Assembly (NCBI GenBank): GCA_022826865.1
Contig: JAJDUC010000028.1
Location: 1-64,000 of the forward strand
Length of the DNA: 64,000 nt
Reading direction: 5' to 3'
Source of the DNA: Anaerolineae bacterium
Lineage (GTDB): Bacteria > Chloroflexota > Anaerolineae > Aggregatilineales > Phototrophicaceae
Part shown: piece after piece, positions 17,599 through 27,895 of the stretch
Position numbering within the stretch: position 1 is the stretch's first letter
How the letters are laid out: each line of letters opens with the position of its first letter
The notes under the pieces: model-generated
Seen by the model: only the letters and a program-made list of their open reading frames with translations
Told to the model about the DNA's origin: nothing
Databases searched by the model: none
Translations under genes and position numbers: made by a program

Positions 17599-18906
17599 TC
17601 AAGGCTGGCGCCCGCTTGTGATTTCTGCCGGGTGTATGAGTTGCCCGGCGACGCAGCTTGCCGCGACCACCGCCGGATTGGCCAGGTAGATTTCGGCATC
17701 GGCTTCGCCCATGCGTCCGCGAAAATTGCGGTTGGCGCTGCTGATGCAGACTTCGCCCGGCGCCAGAACACCCATGTGATTGCCCATGCAGGGTCCGCAG
17801 CCGGGTGTGCCGATGGTCGCGCCGGCTTCCAGCAGCGTGCCGATATATCCGGCATCGACCGCATCGCGCAAGACCAGAGAGGACGCCGGTATGACGATAA
17901 GCCGAGACTTCAATTGTTTGCCTTCAAGGACGGCTGCTGCTGCCGCGATATCTTCCAGGCGGCCGTTGGTGCAGGTGCCGATGAAGCCAAGATCCACGGC
18001 TGTCGCCGCGATTGCGGAAAGCGGCAGGACCTTATCAACCGCGTGCGGGCACGATACCATCGGCTCGATGTCATGCATGTTGATTCGGTGTTCCGCCGCG
18101 TAAACCGCGCCGGCATCCGGGTAGAGCGCGTGCTCTCGGAATCGGTCGAGGCGCTCCGCCCAGTCGGCCGGTCGTGTGCGCTTCAAGGTGTTGTCGATCC
18201 AGTTCCAGGTGACCTCGTCCGGCGCGATGCAAGCGTTCTTGGCGCCCATCTCGGCCATCATGTTGGTCAGCGCGGCGCGCGAATCGGGCGACAGATCGGC
18301 GATGCCGTCGCCAGCAAACTCCACCGCCATGTAAGCCGCGCCTTCGGAAGACAGCTCGCCGATCAGGTTGATGGTCAGGTCCTTGGTTGTGACGCCGGGG
18401 TTCAGGCGGCCAGTTAGCGTGACGCGCATCGTCTCCGGCACGCGCAGCCAGAGTTGGCCCGTGGCCCAGAGCGCAGCGACCTCGCTGCGCCCGATGCCGG
18501 CGCCAAAGGCCCCAAGCCAGCCGAAATGCGGGCTGTGGCTATCGGCGCCCAGCAGGGACAAGCCGGGTCCGACGATGCCCTCCTCACAAAGGACCTGGTG
18601 GCAAATCCCGCGGCCAATTTCAAAGAAGTTCGATATGCCTTGTTCCCTAACAAAGTCGCGGATGCGCGCGTGGTTCAGCGCATGTTTTGCCGATGGCGGT
18701 GGAACGGCGTGATCAAGCGTTATCGCAAGCCGCTCCGGGTGCTTGACCTTCGCTTGCGGAAGCTGCGCGAATATCTCGGCGATGGCGGCGGTATTGTCAT
18801 GACTGAGGATGACGTCCGGCTCGCTGATGATGATTTCGCCCGGCCGGACTGATTTCCGTTTGCTTGACCGCGCAAGCAGTTTTTCCGTGAGTGTTTGCAT
18901 CTCCAT
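17599..18906 (-). CDS. lysT: Aconitase-family large subunit (LeuC-like; probable homoaconitase large subunit)
   Basis: [31 protein letters not shown] and [12 protein letters not shown] motifs. The lysine (rather than leucine) role is inferred from context. Confidence 0.8.
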
Positions 18907-18983
18907 ATCTTCGTTGCTTTTGCCCAATGGATTCTCTGCTAGAATGGCTCGGCGGCGACGACTTCAATAAATCTAAGGGCGAT

Positions 18984-20273
18984 ATGCTGGCACAAGATCT
19001 GCGCGAAAAGCTCCACCACAACTATTTCGTGAACATCATGGACGGCAGTCTATTCGGCTTTGGCGTCTCGGGTTTAGCCTCCTATGTTACCATAATCCCG
19101 CTCTACCTGTCCTTCTTGACCGAGTCGACAGCGCTGATTGGATTTGTAGCGGCTCTGTTTCACATAGGCTGGCAGACGCCGCAGCTGTTAACCGCCAATT
19201 ATGTTGCAGGCCTGCGGCGTTTCAAGCCGATGACGGTCGCGATGACGCTGATCGAGCGCGTGCCATACTTTGGATTGGCCGCCGTCGCCTTCCTGATACC
19301 CACAATCGGCGTCGATCTGGCGCTTGCTCTTACGCTGCTGCTTCTGCTGATTCAGTCTCTGGGCGGCGGCTTCACCGGCAATGCCTGGCAGAGCATGATC
19401 AGCAAGATCATGCCACCGCATCGGCTCGGCACTTTTTTTGGCGTGCAGTCGGCCTGCGTCAACCTCTTTGGCGCGGGCGGCGCCTTGCTCGCCAGTTTCA
19501 TTCTGGATCGCAACGGCTTTCCCGAGGGCTTTTCCCTGCTTTTCTTCATCGCCGGGCTGAGCCTGCTTGTTTCATTCTTCTTCCTGGCCTGGACCTATGA
19601 GCCCGAGAGCGCGCCCACAGATGTTGTCGAGCGCGTGAACTGGCGCAAGTTCGGCGGCCGCCTCCGCGAGATCCTGCATTTGGACCGAAATTTTCGCTGG
19701 TTTCTGGTCGCCCGGGCCTTGACCGCCCTGAGCCTCACCGCAATTTCTTTCTACACCATTTTTGGCATTCGACGATTTGACATGTCCCCGGAGTTGGCCG
19801 GCGCCTTGACAAGTGTCTTGCTCATTTCGAATACGGTGAGCAGCGCCGGCATCGGTTGGCTGGGCGACCGCTGGGGGCACAGGCGCGTGCTGATCCTGGC
19901 GAATGTGTTGACCGTGCTCGCCATCGCCATAGCGCTGACGGCGCCGGATGTCTACTGGTTCTACCCGGTCTTCGCCCTCACCGGCTTCGTCAATTCATCA
20001 CAGTGGTCCACGATCATGACCATCACCGTGCAGTTCAGTTCGGTCGCGGAACGTCCGTTTTATATCGGCATGGCCAACACGCTCATCGCGCCGGTGTCCA
20101 TATTGGCGCCGATTATCGGCGGCTGGCTGGTTGATGCGGTCAGCTTCGAATTGAGCTTCGGAGCGTTCGCGCTGGCGGGGATTCTCTCGATTATGGTTTA
20201 TGTCATTGCCATGGACGACCCGCGGGGAGCGGACGGCGCCAGCGGAGCCGACCGGCTCGCGACGGCGGATTAG
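18984..20273 (+). CDS. MFS transporter
   Basis: Multi-TM protein with duplicated MFS halves; ATG 18984 has an AGGG SD and an upstream TAGAAT box (18939-18944). The tracked 18891 start overlaps the divergent lysT start. Confidence 0.78.
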   Translation: MLAQDLREKLHHNYFVNIMDGSLFGFGVSGLASYVTIIPLYLSFLTESTALIGFVAALFHIGWQTPQLLTANYVAGLRRFKPMTVAMTLIERVPYFGLAAVAFLIPTIGVDLALALTLLLLLIQSLGGGFTGNAWQSMISKIMPPHRLGTFFGVQSACVNLFGAGGALLASFILDRNGFPEGFSLLFFIAGLSLLVSFFFLAWTYEPESAPTDVVERVNWRKFGGRLREILHLDRNFRWFLVARALTALSLTAISFYTIFGIRRFDMSPELAGALTSVLLISNTVSSAGIGWLGDRWGHRRVLILANVLTVLAIAIALTAPDVYWFYPVFALTGFVNSSQWSTIMTITVQFSSVAERPFYIGMANTLIAPVSILAPIIGGWLVDAVSFELSFGAFALAGILSIMVYVIAMDDPRGADGASGADRLATAD

Positions 20274-21421
20274 TCCTCAACCGCAATTGGCATGTCGTAC
20301 AGCATGCGGTCGACATCCGCGACGGTGATCGGTTGGTCGTCTGCCAAAGATTTGACCCGCGCCGTCACCTGCTTCAGCGCCTCTTCCGGAAGATGAATCC
20401 CGAGACCGAGCGCGCGGTCGCGTATCGCGTTGCGACCGACCAGCCGGTGGGCGACATCGATCATGCGGGACATGCCAAAATCTTGGGGATCAATCGCTTC
20501 GTAGGTTGTGGGGTTCAGCAGCACCGCTTTTGTATGCACGCCGGCTTTATGGTGGAAGGCGACTTCGCCCGTGATCGGCGTATTAAAAGGGATGACGATC
20601 CCCAGTTTGGCGGCGACGAGTCTTTCAATCTCGGCGAGCAGCGGCAGGTCATACTTGGCTACCAGCTTCTGATCACTGGCATAGAGCCTCCCAATCAGCG
20701 CGCCCATCGGCGTGATGCCGTTGCGTTCGCCAATGCCGAGAACGGTGGTGTCTATATGGGTCGCGCCCGCTTGCAGCGCGCAAAAGGCGTTGGCTACGGC
20801 GCAGCTGCTGTCGTTATGACCATGAAACTCGATATCGCAAGAGACGACATCGCGTAAATTGGAAATGAGATTGTATGTCGCCAAGGGATCGGCAATGCCA
20901 ACGGTATCGGCGACGCCGACACGGTCGACTCCGGCTAGATCAATGGCGCGATACACCGTCATCACATCGGCGAAATTGCTGCGGAAGGTGTCTTCGGTGC
21001 TGAAGCGGGTCTCGACGCCTTGGCTCTTGAGGAAAGCGATGATTTCTTGCCCGATACGAATAACCTCGTCCAGGCTTTTGCCATGGCTGTATTCGCGCAT
21101 GTATCTGGATGTGCCAATGTAGACATCAGCGCCGTCAACGCCGCAATCCACCGCCAGCTTGGCGTCTTCCATATTGGCGCGAATATGTGTGAGCAACTTG
21201 AAGCGGCGCGGCATTCTCGCCAGAGCGCGAATGGCTCTGGCGCTTTCCGGGCTTGCCACCGGCGTCGACAACTCCATGTATTCGACACCGAAGCGATCCA
21301 GCAGTTGAGCAATTTCCAGCTTGTCGTCAATGGTGAAGTGCGCGCCGCGGAACTGCTCGCCTTCGCGCAGGGTCGAATCGATGAAGTTGAAGCCGTCCGC
21401 GAGAATGTCTCGGTTGTACAT
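20270..21421 (-). CDS. hcs: Homocitrate synthase
   Basis: NFIDSTLREGEQFRGAHFTIDDKLEIAQLLDRFGVEYMELSTPVASPES, EFHGHNDSSCAVANAF, LGIGERNGITPMGALI; directly downstream of lysK. Confidence 0.9.
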   Translation of the reverse strand: MYNRDILADGFNFIDSTLREGEQFRGAHFTIDDKLEIAQLLDRFGVEYMELSTPVASPESARAIRALARMPRRFKLLTHIRANMEDAKLAVDCGVDGADVYIGTSRYMREYSHGKSLDEVIRIGQEIIAFLKSQGVETRFSTEDTFRSNFADVMTVYRAIDLAGVDRVGVADTVGIADPLATYNLISNLRDVVSCDIEFHGHNDSSCAVANAFCALQAGATHIDTTVLGIGERNGITPMGALIGRLYASDQKLVAKYDLPLLAEIERLVAAKLGIVIPFNTPITGEVAFHHKAGVHTKAVLLNPTTYEAIDPQDFGMSRMIDVAHRLVGRNAIRDRALGLGIHLPEEALKQVTARVKSLADDQPITVADVDRMLYDMPIAVED

Positions 21422-21439: not shown

Positions 21440-22492
21440 TCAAATTGATTGGAGAACCGCAGTAAGAACGTTTATTGATTTTAGATACTCGTCAAGAATG
21501 ATATGCTCCCGCGGCGTGTGATCCAGCGCGGAATCGCCCGGCCCATAAGCCACGATCGGGCAATTCCAACCGGGGCCTACCACATTCATATCGGAAGTGC
21601 CTGTCTTGTGGACAAAGCGTGGCACACCACCCATACTGCGGATCGCGCGCCGGAACTGGCGGCTGAGTTCGCTGTTTCTGTTGGCGGTGATGGCGGCTTC
21701 CGCGCCGCGCGCGCGCAACGTCGCGCCATTCCCAGCTGAGAATTGCGCCCGGATGCGCTCAGGCGAGCCCCCCGGCGGTAAGCGCAAGCCAATCGTCATT
21801 TCGGCGACGCCGTTCACGCCTTCTTGCCAGGTATTGATGTCGCGCAGCGAAGCGTCCAGCCGGCCGAAGATGGTGTCAATTCCCTGATTTTGATTGTCGC
21901 AAATGGCTTTGACTTCAGCCCAGAATGCGAGCGCGCGCTCAGCCGGGCTCGGTTCATCGCCGGCGCTATGCGCCAGGCCGCCCTCCCAACGCCAGTCAAG
22001 CAATAACCTTCCCTTGTATCCCAAGGTAATGCGGTCCCAGCGCGATGGTTCGCCGATCACGCAGTAGTCGGGCTGATAGCGCTGCAGGGCGTAGCGCGCG
22101 CCGCGGCTGGTCGCGGCTTCTTCTTCTACCGCGCCGATCACGATGACTCTTATGTCTTCCGACAGGCGCGCGCGGCTCGCGGCGGCGGCGAAAGCGCAGA
22201 GCGGCCCCTTGGCGTCAACGGCGCCGCGACCATAGAGTTTGCGTCCCTCGCGTTTTACAAGCGGGAATCCGGCGAATGTGTCGATATGTCCGAGGAGCAT
22301 CACTTCGCGCGCGCCGGCGCCCATGACACCCACGGCATTGCCGGCCCCGTCGACGAAAGCGTCGTCATAGCTGGCCGACTTCATCCAGTCAACAAGGCAG
22401 GCGGCCGCCTCGCTCTCTTCGCCGGAAGGGCTGGGAATGGCCACCAGATCTTGCAGCAGCTGTTCGGCGCTGCGGTCGCATGGGGCAGCCAT
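21440..22492 (-). CDS. lysK: [LysW]-lysine hydrolase (M20 family)
   Basis: VAIPSPSGEES, LGHIDTFAGFP, GRGAVDAKGPL, GAVEEEAATSRGARY; located in the lysW cluster. Start corrected to ATG 22492. Confidence 0.9.
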   Translation of the reverse strand: MAAPCDRSAEQLLQDLVAIPSPSGEESEAAACLVDWMKSASYDDAFVDGAGNAVGVMGAGAREVMLLGHIDTFAGFPLVKREGRKLYGRGAVDAKGPLCAFAAAASRARLSEDIRVIVIGAVEEEAATSRGARYALQRYQPDYCVIGEPSRWDRITLGYKGRLLLDWRWEGGLAHSAGDEPSPAERALAFWAEVKAICDNQNQGIDTIFGRLDASLRDINTWQEGVNGVAEMTIGLRLPPGGSPERIRAQFSAGNGATLRARGAEAAITANRNSELSRQFRRAIRSMGGVPRFVHKTGTSDMNVVGPGWNCPIVAYGPGDSALDHTPREHIILDEYLKSINVLTAVLQSI

Positions 22493-22494
22493 CG

Positions 22495-23661
22495 TTAGCC
22501 CAGGACCTCTTTGATCGCGGCGACGACATCCGCCAGCTGCGCGCGGTTGATGATGAGCGGCGGCAGAAGCCGCAGTGTATTCAAGCCGGCCGGCAGGGCG
22601 AGCGCGCCGCAATCTTGAAGCGCTTTCAAAACTGGCGTCACGCGCCCGCGCAACTCCAAACCGACCATTAGCCCACGTCCGCGAATGGCGCGAACGCCTC
22701 TCAAGTTGAGTGATTCCAGCTCCGCCATGAGCCAGGCGCCGTTTTCACGCGCGCCGTCTACCAGCCTCTCGGCGCGTATGGTCGAGATGGTGGCGATGGA
22801 CGCGGCGCAAGCCAGGGGATTGCCGCCGAAGGTGCTGCCATGTGTCCCACGGTCGATGGGACCGTGCACGTCGCGCCAGCATACCGCGCCCATCGGAATG
22901 CCTCCGCCGATCGCTTTGCCCAGCGCCATAATGTCGGCTGTGATGCCGGCATGCTCGCAGCCAAACCAGCGCCCGGTCCTGCCAAAACCGGTCTGAATCT
23001 CATCCATGATAAGCATGGCCCCGGTTGCATCGCAGCGTTCACGCAAGAATTGTAGATAGATGTCATCAGCCGGATGCACGCCGCCTTCGCCTTGTATTGG
23101 TTCGATCACAACCGCCGCGGTCGTTTCGCTTATCGCCTCTCCCGCCGCTTCGATATCGTTATACGGGATATGTTCAACTTCCGGCAGCCAGTCCTGGAAC
23201 GGCTGGCGGTATTTCCTTGTCCAGGTCAGCGATAGCGCGCCGGCGGTCCGACCGTGGAAAGCGCGCTTCGAGGCCACAATCCCGCCGCGGCCGGTCAGTA
23301 ATTTTGCCACCTTGAGCGCGCCTTCAATCGCTTCCGCGCCGCTGTTGCACAAGAAGAAGCGATTGAGGTCGGCCGGCGTGACCGTCCGCAACAAGGCGTA
23401 CAATTCGGCGCGGCGGTCGTTGTAGAAAGACTCATGGCTGGTCACAAGCGTGGAGGCCTGGGCCGTGATGGCGTTCAGAACGGCGGGATGGCAATGCCCC
23501 AGGGCGGCGACGCCCTGGCCACTGGTCGCGTCCAGGTAGCGAACCCCATCGAGATCGTAAACATATACGCCTTCGCCCCGTACAAGAGCGGTAGGCCGCT
23601 TGCCATAAGCGCCCGAGCCATGGCGATCTTCCAATTCAAAGGCAGTTTCAATTTCTATCAT
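22495..23661 (-). CDS. lysJ: [LysW]-aminoadipate semialdehyde transaminase
   Basis: Class III aminotransferase (LDATSGQGVAALGHCHPAV, MDEIQTGFGRTGRWFGCEH, HGSTFGGNPLACAA); start ATG 23661 overlapping the lysZ stop. Confidence 0.92.
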   Translation of the reverse strand: MIEIETAFELEDRHGSGAYGKRPTALVRGEGVYVYDLDGVRYLDATSGQGVAALGHCHPAVLNAITAQASTLVTSHESFYNDRRAELYALLRTVTPADLNRFFLCNSGAEAIEGALKVAKLLTGRGGIVASKRAFHGRTAGALSLTWTRKYRQPFQDWLPEVEHIPYNDIEAAGEAISETTAAVVIEPIQGEGGVHPADDIYLQFLRERCDATGAMLIMDEIQTGFGRTGRWFGCEHAGITADIMALGKAIGGGIPMGAVCWRDVHGPIDRGTHGSTFGGNPLACAASIATISTIRAERLVDGARENGAWLMAELESLNLRGVRAIRGRGLMVGLELRGRVTPVLKALQDCGALALPAGLNTLRLLPPLIINRAQLADVVAAIKEVLG

Positions 23662-24467
23662 GCTGTAAACCTCGTGCCGGCGCCGGAGAGCGCTCGCGAG
23701 ACCGGGCGCGGCAGGCGGCCGTCGCCAATGATCACGGATTCTACGCCGGCCTCCAGCGCTTCCTGGGCGGCGAGCACCTTGCGCTTCATCCGCCCCTGCG
23801 CCCATTCAAGCGCGCGGTCGATATCCGCTAGCGCGATTGACTCCACGAATGAAGATTCGTCCGGAAATTGGCGGTAAAGTCCGCGCACATTGCTCAATAT
23901 CACCAGGTTCGCCGCATGAAAGGCGCCGGCTACGGTCGCCGCGGCCCGGTCTCCATCGACATTTAGCAATCCATCATCGCTGTTCGCCATCGGCGGCAAC
24001 ACCGGCACCTGGTTTTGAGCAAGGGCCTGGCGGAGGCTTGCCGCGTTCAGACCGCGAATTGCCCCACTGTGATCATCGCGCACCATGCGTCGGCGGCCGT
24101 TCACCAGGGCGCGAATCGCTTTCTTGCGTTCCCCCCGCAAGGCCACATTTTCAGCAACGAAACCGGCCGCATTGACGTCAAGTTGACACAAGCCGGCCAC
24201 AAGCCGCTCATTCGCGCTTGTGGCGGCGCTAACATAGATATCGCGGACGGCGGGCGGCGTGTAACGGGAACTGTGCCCGGAGGGCGAGATCAGATTCTGC
24301 ACGGCAACGCCCAACTCGGCGCAGAGTTGATTCATCGCCGTGCTGACGCCATGAACAACAATCAATGGACGCTCCGCGGCGATGCGAGCCAGGTCATCAC
24401 AAGCGGCATCCAGGTCTAGGCCTTCGCCGCCACCGAGTTTCACAACCAGCAAGTCTTTCCGGGACAT
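23658..24467 (-). CDS. lysZ: [LysW]-aminoadipate kinase
   Basis: Amino acid kinase fold (LLVVKLGGGEG...VVHGVSTAMNQL; NVDGDRAAA) with LysZ-like divergence from ArgB. Confidence 0.92.
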   Translation of the reverse strand: MSRKDLLVVKLGGGEGLDLDAACDDLARIAAERPLIVVHGVSTAMNQLCAELGVAVQNLISPSGHSSRYTPPAVRDIYVSAATSANERLVAGLCQLDVNAAGFVAENVALRGERKKAIRALVNGRRRMVRDDHSGAIRGLNAASLRQALAQNQVPVLPPMANSDDGLLNVDGDRAAATVAGAFHAANLVILSNVRGLYRQFPDESSFVESIALADIDRALEWAQGRMKRKVLAAQEALEAGVESVIIGDGRLPRPVSRALSGAGTRFTA

Positions 24468-24480
24468 TGCTAACCCGCCT

Positions 24481-25506
24481 CTATGGATAAATGCCGGGGA
24501 ATTCAAGCCCGGTCGTTTCTTCAAAACCAAACATGAGATTCATCGATTGAACGGCGCTGCCCGCAGCGCCTTTGCCCAGATTGTCCAAGGCGGCGATCAG
24601 GACCAGGTGCCGTCCATCGCCCGCCAAGTCAAAGCCGATATCGCAGAAGTTGCTGCCGGCGACGATGCGCGGCTCGGGCAGGCGGTGCAAGCCGACTTTG
24701 CCGCTCACCAAGCGCAGAAAGGGCTCGTCGCGATATTGCCCGCGATACAGACGCCAGATATCGCGCTCGACCAGTGGCTCGCCTAAATCGCAATGCGCCA
24801 GCAGGTGTACGCCGCGCACCATTTCAATCGCTGTCACCGCGAAACGAATGGGGACCGCGCAGCCGAGGACCATTTGCACTTCCGCCATATGGCGGTGGCC
24901 CGATGCTTTGTAGGTACGGACGGCGCCGCTGCGCACCGGGTGATGCGAGCCGGCATTGCCTTTGTTGCCGCCTTCGGAGGAACCAACCTTGATCTCTATC
25001 AGCGCGCGCTCAAGCAGGCCCGCCTTCACCAAGGGCAGCAGCGCCAGATTCACCGCGGTCGCGTTGCAGCCGACGCCGCTGACGCAATCGACGCCCCGCA
25101 GCAGCTCGCGATTGACTTCGGGCAAACCATAGACGAAGCGGTCCAACCATTGCGGCGCGGGATGCGTCTCGCCGTACCAGCGCTCGTAGGCCGATGCGGA
25201 ATCCAGGCGAAAATCAGCCGAGAGATCGATCAGCTTCGGCGCCAGCGCCGCGTAGCGGTCGATTGCGTCGGCGACGGTCCCATGCGGCAGCGCCAGGAAG
25301 AGCAGATCACATTTTTCCAGCGTATCGGGATGGATGAACTTTAAGTTGGAGACGCCGCGCATGTTCGGATGTACGCTGTGAATGTAGCGCCCGGCATGTT
25401 CCCGGCTTGTGATCTGCGCCAATTCCACGCCGGGATGAAAATGCAGCAGGCGCAGCAGCTCGCCTCCGGTGTATCCGCTGCCCCCGACAATGCCCGCTCG
25501 AATCAC
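24481..25506 (-). CDS. lysY: [LysW]-L-2-aminoadipate 6-phosphate reductase
   Basis: IRAGIVGGSGYTGGELLRLLHFHPGVELAQITSREHAGRYIHSVHPNMRG; ArgC/LysY family; 5th gene of the lysW cluster. Confidence 0.93.
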   Translation of the reverse strand: MIRAGIVGGSGYTGGELLRLLHFHPGVELAQITSREHAGRYIHSVHPNMRGVSNLKFIHPDTLEKCDLLFLALPHGTVADAIDRYAALAPKLIDLSADFRLDSASAYERWYGETHPAPQWLDRFVYGLPEVNRELLRGVDCVSGVGCNATAVNLALLPLVKAGLLERALIEIKVGSSEGGNKGNAGSHHPVRSGAVRTYKASGHRHMAEVQMVLGCAVPIRFAVTAIEMVRGVHLLAHCDLGEPLVERDIWRLYRGQYRDEPFLRLVSGKVGLHRLPEPRIVAGSNFCDIGFDLAGDGRHLVLIAALDNLGKGAAGSAVQSMNLMFGFEETTGLEFPGIYP

Positions 25507-26381
25507 GCGATCGCTCCAACTTGTTCGATAACAAAATCGATTACTTCCTGCGCGATGTCGACGCCGGTTGGTTTGCTGCTGTTGCGAAACTCCATCGTGT
25601 GATTGATTTCGTTTACGACATAGCGCCCGGTCGCGTCTTCCAGCAAATCAATCGCAAGGATGCCGCCGCCTACGGCCCGCGCCGCGCGGACGCAGATATT
25701 GTCAAGCGCGGCGTTAACCGGGCAGTTCGTGGCAAGGCCGCCGCGGGCGGTGTTTGTGATCCAGTGGTTGGATGCGCGGTATATGGCGGCGATCGTTCTG
25801 TCGCCGACCACAAACGCGCGAATGTCGCGCCCCGGTTTTTCCACGTATTCTTGTACGTAATAAATGTGATGGTTGTAATCGCCCAGCGTCTGGCGATGTT
25901 CCAGGATGGCCTCGGCGCTGTCGCGGTTGTGGACGCGCGCCAAGAGCCGGCCCCAGGATCCGGTCACCGGTTTCAGCACAGCCGGATATTCGACATTTTC
26001 AATCGCCTGCAGGGCGCTGTCCGGCGTGAAGGCTACACGCGTATGCGGCTGCGGTATGTCATGCCGTGTCAGAGCGATGCTCGTGCGCAGCTTGTCGCCG
26101 CAGACGGCGGCCGTTTCGTAAGTATTGTAGCTGCGCAGGCCCCAACTGTTCAGGATGGCCAGCGCATACATGCCGCGCGACGTGCTGACGCAGCGCTCGA
26201 AGATGAAGTCGTAATCGCGCCAGGCGCAGCCGGAGGGCGCAAGCTGCTCGGCGCCCTGAGTGAGATTAAAGTTCAGCTCGCGGTCCAGAATGATATCCGG
26301 GCTGATGTCGCGGCTGTTAAATGCCGCAATAATCAACTTTTCTTCCGCGCGAATATGCGTGACAAGCAAGGCGACGCGCAT
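25503..26381 (-). CDS. lysX: [LysW]-aminoadipate ligase (ATP-grasp)
   Basis: RVALLVTHIRAEEKLI, ATP-grasp domain with VLKPVTGSWGRLLARV and EINHTMEFRNS; start ATG 26381. Confidence 0.93.
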   Translation of the reverse strand: MRVALLVTHIRAEEKLIIAAFNSRDISPDIILDRELNFNLTQGAEQLAPSGCAWRDYDFIFERCVSTSRGMYALAILNSWGLRSYNTYETAAVCGDKLRTSIALTRHDIPQPHTRVAFTPDSALQAIENVEYPAVLKPVTGSWGRLLARVHNRDSAEAILEHRQTLGDYNHHIYYVQEYVEKPGRDIRAFVVGDRTIAAIYRASNHWITNTARGGLATNCPVNAALDNICVRAARAVGGGILAIDLLEDATGRYVVNEINHTMEFRNSSKPTGVDIAQEVIDFVIEQVGAIA

Positions 26382-26385
26382 GAGA

Positions 26386-26562
26386 TTATTCTCCCCAATC
26401 CTCTTCGACTTCCGGCGCCAACTCAAGCTCGATGGGGTCCAGGCACATAATCTCCAGCTCAGTGCCGCACTCCTCACAAGACAGGAGTTCGTTTTCCATG
26501 GCATCGTGAGGGATTAATATCACGGCGTCGCACTCCGGGCATAGCGGCGTTCCAGTTGTCAT
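26386..26562 (-). CDS. lysW: LysW amino-group carrier protein (58 aa; not in supplied ORF track)
   Basis: Translation MTTGTPLCPECDAVILIPHDAMENELLSCEECGTELEIMCLDPIELELAPEVEEDWGE*: two CxxC zinc knuckles and the C-terminal EDWGE signature of LysW; GAGGGG SD; immediately upstream of lysX. Confidence 0.95.
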   Translation of the reverse strand: MTTGTPLCPECDAVILIPHDAMENELLSCEECGTELEIMCLDPIELELAPEVEEDWGE

Positions 26563-26595: not shown

Positions 26596-26619
26596 AAAAA
26601 ACCCGCCGTACGGGCGGGT
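26596..26619 (-). terminator. Intrinsic terminator (attenuator) in the lysW 5' leader
   Basis: Minus strand ACCCGCC-CGTAC-GGCGGGT followed by TTTTT; 36 nt upstream of the lysW ATG with no room for another promoter. Confidence 0.88.
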
Positions 26620-26659
26620 CTGCGTTTAACGTTGGATGACTACACAAACAAGCCCATAC
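26608..26659 (-). promoter_or_regulatory. Candidate antiterminator helix of the lys attenuator
   Basis: Minus strand 26659-26642 GUAUGGGCUUGUUUGUGU pairs with 26625-26608 ACGCAGACCCGCCCGUAC: 8 bp, a 2x2 mismatch, 8 bp, with a 16-nt loop. It fully overlaps the terminator 5' arm (26613-26619). Confidence 0.78.
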
Positions 26660-26728
26660 TCAGCGGGTGCGGGTCTTCTTAGCCTTTTTGCTGCTGCGAT
26701 GGTCTGGGCGCATGGCGTCGCGCTTCAT
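26660..26728 (-). CDS. Candidate lysine leader peptide MKRDAMRPDHRSSKKAKKTRTR
   Basis: 22-codon ORF with AAA AAG GCT AAG AAG (26675-26689) near its end, between a promoter and the terminator/antiterminator pair. SD is weak. The tracked 64-aa ORF in this frame starts upstream of the predicted promoter. Confidence 0.75.
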   Translation of the reverse strand: MKRDAMRPDHRSSKKAKKTRTR

Positions 26729-26742
26729 GTCAATTCCATTTA

Positions 26743-26769
26743 CAACATCGCACTTTAGCTTCGATGTTG
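26743..26769 (-). repeat. Perfect 8-bp inverted repeat at the predicted lys-operon transcription start (operator or 5' stem-loop)
   Basis: CAACATCG-N11-CGATGTTG on the minus strand, starting 8 nt after the -10 box. Confidence 0.6.
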
Positions 26770-26776
26770 GGAATCT

Positions 26777-26804
26777 ACTATATTCAATTTGTACTAAATG
26801 CCAA
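26777..26804 (-). promoter_or_regulatory. sigma70-type promoter of the lysW operon
   Basis: Minus strand TTGGCA (26804-26799), 16-nt spacer, TATAGT (26782-26777), in the intergenic gap after the kinase stop. Confidence 0.7.
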
Positions 26805-26825: not shown

Positions 26826-27767
26826 TCAATAGCCGAAGCGGGCCAGCGATTCACGCAGGGGCGGAAGATACTTCTCGCCGAAGATTGTCAAATGCACGAG
26901 CAGAGGATACAAGTTATAGATATGCCGCCTCGTCTCGAAGAACTCGGCCGCCAGCGGGATCCGTTCGCGATACGTTTGGAAGAAGGCCTCGCCTACACCG
27001 TCAAACAGTGTCATATAGGCCAATTCAATTTCATTGTGCGCATAGTAGAGCGCGGGATCAATGATGCCCACAACGCGCCCGCCTCGCGCGATCACATTCG
27101 TCCGCCACATGTCCCCGTGGATGAGGCAAGGATAACTCGGTTCAATCAAAAACTCGTCCAAAGCCCCGGCGATGCGCAGGAGCCGCTCCTCAAGCGCCGG
27201 CGGCAGATGGCCGCTCTCTCGCGCCACTTCGACCATGTAGAGCAGACGCTGTTCGCGGAAGAAACTGATCCATGACATCGACTGCGAATTCGGCTGGCGC
27301 AGCGGTCCAATCAAGGTATCGCGCTCGAGCCCATAAGCCTCGCCTCGCGCTTGATGACAATCGGCCAGCAGTTGCGCAAGATGAGGCAGGCTCGCGCCGC
27401 TCCATTCCGCCTCCCCGGCGATGTGCTCCATGAGCAGCAGGTTCGGCTCGGCATGCAAAACTTGGGGCACGGGCAATCGTGACTTGTCGCGAAGGTAGCG
27501 CAGCATATAAGCTTCGACCGTCAAGTCGTGGCCGCCTTCGCCGACCTTGGCCACGATGGATGTAGCGTCGGCGAGGTCTAGCCGCAGCACCTGGCTGATC
27601 ATGCCGCCGGGGAGCGGCTGCGCTCGGACCAGGCGGCGCTGAAGCAAAGTCTCGATCCTCTCTTTTTTCAAACCGCCATTTACGGTAGCCGAGGACCCTT
27701 GATCTTTTGCGTGAACGCGGTAGCCATTCTCGCTGCCGCCGAGCGGCTGTGATAGCGCTTGATTCAT
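26826..27767 (-). CDS. Fructosamine kinase family protein
   Basis: LIHGDMWRTNV...GIIDPALYYAHNEIELAYMTLF, FN3K-like; start ATG 27767. Confidence 0.88.
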   Translation of the reverse strand: MNQALSQPLGGSENGYRVHAKDQGSSATVNGGLKKERIETLLQRRLVRAQPLPGGMISQVLRLDLADATSIVAKVGEGGHDLTVEAYMLRYLRDKSRLPVPQVLHAEPNLLLMEHIAGEAEWSGASLPHLAQLLADCHQARGEAYGLERDTLIGPLRQPNSQSMSWISFFREQRLLYMVEVARESGHLPPALEERLLRIAGALDEFLIEPSYPCLIHGDMWRTNVIARGGRVVGIIDPALYYAHNEIELAYMTLFDGVGEAFFQTYRERIPLAAEFFETRRHIYNLYPLLVHLTIFGEKYLPPLRESLARFGY

Positions 27768-27895
27768 TCTGCTTTCCCGTTGGCCCGACGCTTGACGCAG
27801 CCTTCGCCAAACCACGCAAAGGGCGGCTTGACAGCGTATGAGCCCAAGCTGTATAATCCGCATGATTATGCCCGAAATTGCACAGGAGTAAATGG

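Follow-up and report, generated by a model that had tools for sequence, protein, structure and literature searches.

A probable lysine leader-peptide attenuator upstream of lysW in an uncultured member of the Anaerolineae, and tandem versions of it in related lineages

How is a LysW-dependent lysine operon controlled in an uncultured member of the Chloroflexota whose relatives are known from MAGs only? The operon in question lies on the minus strand of positions 1 to 64,000 of contig JAJDUC010000028.1 (Anaerolineae bacterium, GCA_022826865.1), a 64-kb stretch of DNA that we refer to as the window. On the basis of NCBIfam models, it comprises, in order of transcription, lysW (26386 to 26562), encoding an amino-group carrier protein that ends in EDWGE; lysX (25503 to 26381; TIGR02144, above cut-off); lysY, of the argC family (24481 to 25506; TIGR01850); lysZ, encoding [LysW]-aminoadipate kinase (23658 to 24530; NF010659, above cut-off); lysJ, of the argD family (22495 to 23805; TIGR00707 above cut-off, with the best match, NF042418, below its own); lysK, encoding [LysW]-lysine hydrolase (21440 to 22612; NF003367, above cut-off); and the gene for homocitrate synthase, which catalyzes the committed step of the aminoadipate route (20270 to 21421; TIGR02146, above cut-off). 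A homoaconitase-family gene (17599 to 18927) is located farther downstream, past an MFS gene on the opposite strand. Since homocitrate synthase is encoded within the operon, we assign it to the aminoadipate lysine route rather than to an arginine system. The lysW product scored slightly below both curated cut-offs of NF041070 and TIGR01206 (50.5 of 53.2 and 64.1 of 75), and this gene may therefore be overlooked by automatic annotation.

The same genome also contains a lysA (diaminopimelate decarboxylase) homologue (414 bits; G000:C73:8470-9675, L217), and we therefore do not claim the aminoadipate operon as the sole lysine route; a search for a Lys leader at this homologue found none. The lysine riboswitch (RF00168) had no match in 41 genomes, namely that of the window and 40 relatives, and Rfam as a whole yielded no match in the window or in six of the tandem or relocated loci described below. 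Instead, the evidence assembled here makes it very probable that the operon is controlled by a ribosome-mediated (trp-type) transcription attenuator that senses lysyl-tRNA.

The putative leader ORF (MKRDAMRPDHRSSKKAKKTRTR*; 26660 to 26728, minus strand, 22 codons) has an ATG at 26728, with 26713 as the other candidate start, and a TGA stop codon at 26662-26660; its initiation signals, start codon and ribosome-binding site alike, are weak. Five Lys and five Arg codons (CGC) are present, and the KKAKK motif near the C-terminal end is encoded by the candidate regulatory codons AAA AAG (GCT) AAG AAG at 26689-26675, which the first-pass annotation had placed exactly to the base. When both strands of the window were scanned for a Lys-rich short ORF with an intrinsic terminator within ≤100 nucleotides, this was the one site found, and pattern scans of the same type for leaders of other amino acids returned a few chance-like candidates.

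Directly after the stop codon, segment 2 (GUAUGGGC-uu-GUUUGUGU, 26659-26642) can pair with segment 3 (ACGCAGAC-cc-GCCCGUAC, 26625-26608) to form a predicted antiterminator. The 16 bp originally counted for this pairing is the right number, but they are not one continuous helix; two stretches of 8 bp flank a 2x2 internal loop. Segment 3 includes the 5' arm and loop of an intrinsic terminator (ACCCGCC-CGUAC-GGCGGGU plus U6; 26596 to 26619), the stem of which is formed by 26619-26613 and 26607-26601 and is followed by six T residues at 26601-26596, 33 nucleotides upstream of lysW. The overlap of the terminator 5' arm with the antiterminator, the U-run and the lysW ATG are thus all located where they were first placed, and folding of the window leader yields both the antiterminator and the terminator, in line with the bistable folding that had been proposed as a check. 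Overlooked at first was a third helix, between the end of the leader (segment 1, CCCG, 26664 to 26667) and UGGG at 26656-26653 in the post-stop segment. In MFE folds this candidate anti-antiterminator (the 1:2 helix) comprises only about 4 bp in the window's genus, with varying pair types, and is weak here and longer in other lineages. With three helices, predicted to be mutually exclusive, in the order 1:2, 2:3 and 3:4, the element has the layout of a trp attenuator. The energy of the antiterminator duplex in the window (-24.7 kcal/mol) compares with a mean of -13.0 kcal/mol for shuffled sequences (P = 0.005, the floor of 200 shuffles), but in about half of the genus loci this energy is not individually significant; what carries our argument is conservation and covariation rather than any single fold.

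In the proposed mechanism, a shortage of lysyl-tRNA would stall the ribosome on AAG-AAG at 26680-26675; its footprint would end before 26659, leaving segment 2 free to pair with segment 3, and RNA polymerase would read through the resulting antiterminator into lysW. With plentiful lysyl-tRNA, the ribosome would reach the stop codon and cover the first ~10 nucleotides of segment 2, so that segment 3 would be free, the terminator would form and transcription would end at approximately 26596. This geometry, already outlined in the first-pass annotation, was reproduced by partition-function folding of all 34 genus sequences: when a stalled ribosome occupied the last Lys codon, the probability of the antiterminator was 1.00 in every sequence, and with a ribosome at the stop codon, it was 0.00 and that of the terminator 1.00, likewise in 34 of 34. 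These calculations assumed a footprint of 12 nucleotides downstream (10 to 14 were tried on the window), and the antiterminator was folded on RNA preceding the terminator 3' arm. In the absence of a ribosome, the equilibrium fold favors the antiterminator (the MFE structure in the window; mean probability of 0.81 over the 34 sequences) and, together with the ~4-bp 1:2 helix, this means that termination of an untranslated leader is not clearly predicted.

Absence of the leader ORF and the alternative helix from close relatives had been set beforehand as a refutation test. Both were found upstream of lysW in all 34 genomes of the genus (that of the window and 33 others). At the four Lys codon positions, 135 of the 136 cells specify Lys, and AAA and AAG replace each other at three of these positions; the KK[AV]KK motif is kept in 34/34, one of which has TK for the first KK. 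The stop codon occupies the same position throughout, represented by TGA (14 genomes), TAA (13) or TAG (7), while the codon flanked by the two Thr-type positions that follow KK specifies R, C, P, F, D, G, V, A or others. The combination of retained Lys residues with synonymous exchanges and a fixed stop position served by three stop types points to selection on a translated reading frame and, judged from these alignments, the leader ORF is under selection as a protein.

Farther upstream, a candidate promoter (TTGGCA-N16-TATAGT, 26777 to 26804, minus strand) was recognized from its consensus match and partial conservation. Matches of this type are expected about once by chance in the stretch (0.8 in shuffles). 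Of the promoter initially proposed, the sequence itself is present and TATAGT is conserved together with a preceding GTACAA-type core, but TTGGCA is not; when counted on this core, a TTTTTcGTACAA-N8-TATAGT block is found at the same place in 26 of the 34 genus relatives. The block, written TTTTTCGTACAA-N8-TATAGT upstream of the leader (26777-26804 in the window, with L002 to L033; 26/34 genus loci), may represent a promoter of unusual type or a site bound by a protein.

Among the genus sequences, the helices vary too little for a covariation test (RNAalifold on the genus alignment alone found no double changes in them), and a wider set was needed. LysX was used to retrieve 80 loci, nearly all of them from MAGs named Anaerolineae or Chloroflexi, and in most of these, lysW is preceded by a Lys-rich leader and a terminator. 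Alignment A2 was built from 42 first attenuators of diverse loci, chosen for the Lys leader and the terminator and not for pairing between segments. Here, 86.2% of the antiterminator cells form standard pairs, and 38 cells are doubly changed, compared with 13.3 ± 2.7 in shuffles (none of 500 shuffles reached this number); the covariation score of 0.306 exceeds the values of ≤0.105 obtained in slid registers, which provide the fairer control, since relatedness inflates the covariation counts, also relative to the shuffle control. The pair types include GUAUGGG:CCCAUAC, GUCUGGG:CCCAGAC, GUCCGGG:CCCGGAC and GUUCGGG:CCCGAAC. For the terminator, 93.9% of the cells are paired across the 42 sequences, with 18 doubly changed cells (3.2 in shuffles) and double changes at five of seven pairs. 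The covariation check suggested at the outset thus came out positive for both helices beyond the genus. In MFE folds of the 42 sequences, the 1:2 helix is likewise seen, formed by varied but compatible pairs (CCCGAC:GUCcGGG, CCGAAC:GUUCGG, CUGAAC:GUUCAG, CCGAAA:UUUCGG and CAC:GUG), including GC, AT and CG at one and the same offset. Considered one sequence at a time, its energies are better than those of shuffles (P ≤ 0.05) in no more than 12 of the 42 sequences, making it the weakest of the three helices.

Searches with the RNA alone placed the element at lysine genes exclusively. A covariance model of the genus alignment gave exactly one match per genome in 34/34, always before lysW, and, up to an E value of 5, nothing further in the genome of the window. 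The A2 model, run over 200 genomes of the class, matched 12 of them, a lower bound given the strict filters, and every match lay at lysine genes: nine at lysW (same contig and strand), two at homocitrate synthase and one at a lysJ cluster. In the two homocitrate synthase cases, both from another family (L199:510-627 and L210:505-610), the match directly precedes this gene, which heads the cluster there, and is located 5.6 to 6 kb upstream of lysW; in the third case (L211:2177-2282), it precedes a gene cluster with lysJ. As read from these positions, the attenuator relocates with the head of the lysine operon. Because the regulator tracks the pathway's first gene, whichever that is, control by lysine is supported independently of the leader codons. 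Of 40 sequences drawn from further families of the class, most of them regions upstream of lysW, the pattern scan matched 10 and, on the reverse strand, none; in the others, the operon may begin at another gene, as in L199 and L210.

The first-pass annotation is supported in its reading of the window's attenuator and missed the copies before homocitrate synthase and the lysJ cluster, as well as the occurrence of tandem copies in related lineages. On a LysX tree of 91 rows, labels from the pattern scan identified 30 tandem, 55 single and 6 rows without the element; the tandem loci, with two Lys-leader attenuators in series before lysW, fall in the region of L081 to L116, L040 and L044 to L048. 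The second leader typically ends in ..SKKKQSKKPDPRSG*, and its last codons form the antiterminator arm: UCUGGAU (codons for S and G and the start of the stop codon) pairs with GUCCAGA in the second terminator. In an alignment of the second attenuators (A3), 96.8% of the cells of this helix are paired, with a single doubly changed cell; since the helix is almost invariant, the assignment of the second copy rests on its leader, its terminator and their complementarity. All 34 rows of the window's genus were labeled single by the pattern scan, and the nearest outgroups (L082, L081/L034, L090 and L092) are tandem, which fits the second copy having been lost in the lineage of the window, although the labels require 14 changes on the LysX tree. 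Nevertheless, a second Lys leader (MISKTKQLKKTKQII*), together with a terminator, is present in one genus member (L013:1342-1444, the same site as L073); it is matched by the second-copy model R3 (E = 6e-9) and was kept out of the tandem label by the energy cut-off. On two contigs labeled Bacteroidetes and Pleurocapsa minor (L097 and L111), lysX is of the Anaerolineae type, falls within the Chloroflexota tree and is accompanied by tandem attenuators; these contigs probably represent misbinned or contaminated assemblies. On balance, we lean toward a scenario in which a lysine attenuator family has been kept vertically across the class Anaerolineae, with two same-signal copies in series frequent in the window's relatives, the window's genus having retained the upstream copy but not the second, and the element elsewhere having been re-anchored to the head gene of the lysine operon.

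Could the conserved leader act through its peptide rather than through its codons? A basic KKxKK sequence might arrest the ribosome upon binding of a free ligand, as in TnaC and SpeFL, the latter of which senses free ornithine, and codon starvation would then be irrelevant. The conserved core is indeed a peptide motif, KK[AV]KK with preferred neighbors. However, the spacing and context of the Lys residues differ widely by lineage and also when the first and second leaders of a tandem are compared (KKAKK, KKKQSKK, KKGKK, KRAKSKK and KKTKK), a variation that a specific arrest peptide should not tolerate; only the Lys content and the distance to the hairpins are kept. Moreover, arrest would be needed at low lysine levels, not with the ligand present. 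We consider peptide sensing very unlikely, and attenuation by lysyl-tRNA remains the preferred reading.

Two further alternatives are even less probable. Since LysW enzymes can serve arginine synthesis, and LysW/ArgW systems can be dual in archaea, attenuation might be tuned to arginine or to Lys and Arg jointly, and the five Arg codons beside the five Lys codons in the window's leader would agree with this. Across the 34 genus genomes, however, the Lys codons are conserved and the Arg codons are not: the codon before the last Thr encodes R in 8/34, and the last codon encodes H in 22 and R in 11. This free variation, in an operon that holds homocitrate synthase and [LysW]-aminoadipate kinase, removes the arginine reading, to which we assign a negligible chance. 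Equally improbable is an ordinary terminator of the upstream gene (26826-27863) preceded by a Lys-rich ORF by chance: the terminator does lie between this gene and the co-directional lysW, but every one of the 34 genomes keeps the ORF, its Lys codons, the position of the stop and the alternative helix, the antiterminator helix covaries, and the element tracks lysine genes, accompanying homocitrate synthase or lysJ in rearranged operons, so that conservation refutes a simple terminator as a sufficient explanation.

The kind of attenuator to which we assign the window's element is already known. Tsubouchi et al. reportedly described, in 2005, a leader-peptide attenuator on the lysine (aminoadipate) gene cluster of Thermus thermophilus, which is said to share with the present element the pathway, the Lys codons in a short leader ORF and the attenuation of transcription. 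The element described here differs in belonging to another phylum, in standing before lysW, homocitrate synthase or a lysJ cluster, and in occurring twice in series in relatives of the window.

The operon attenuators of trp, his, leu, thr, ilv and phe in Proteobacteria and Actinobacteria (PMC3766115, PMC1262725) similarly combine a leader rich in the pathway's amino acid with exclusive helices 1:2, 2:3 and 3:4 and a terminator before the first gene. Unlike these, the element presumably responds to lysine, matches no Rfam family and has a weak 1:2 hairpin in the window's genus, for which termination of untranslated RNA, a feature of Escherichia coli trp, is not clearly predicted. Among amino acid attenuators, Rfam was described as representing just those of his, leu, thr and trp, and a gammaproteobacterial origin has been considered possible for them (PMC3766115). 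The lysine riboswitch (L-box, RF00168) serves the same physiological signal in other phyla, with no aptamer present here. Tandem attenuators with two leader ORFs are found in Salmonella mgtCBR, where two signals, ATP and proline, are sensed (PMC3641672); relatives of the window, though not the window itself, resemble this arrangement in having two leader ORFs with predicted attenuation in series, but both of their leaders are Lys-rich and precede a biosynthetic operon. In the open literature searched, we found no report of a Lys attenuator in Chloroflexota and, as far as we checked, it is new to this phylum. The principle of attenuation has long been known; going by the loci compared here, its lysine version is widespread in the class Anaerolineae and often tandem in the window's relatives, and this tandem form is the more novel part.

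A lysine attenuator backed by comparative evidence in uncultured members of the Chloroflexota extends the range of attenuators in terms of phylogeny as well as of amino acids, and it provides a usable RNA model for a phylum in which little is known about regulation. If the scenario of a class-wide family with frequent doubling is true, a doubled attenuator would make repression ratios multiply or give the operon two thresholds for lysyl-tRNA, and the natural single and tandem versions offer material for testing the effect of doubling an attenuator.
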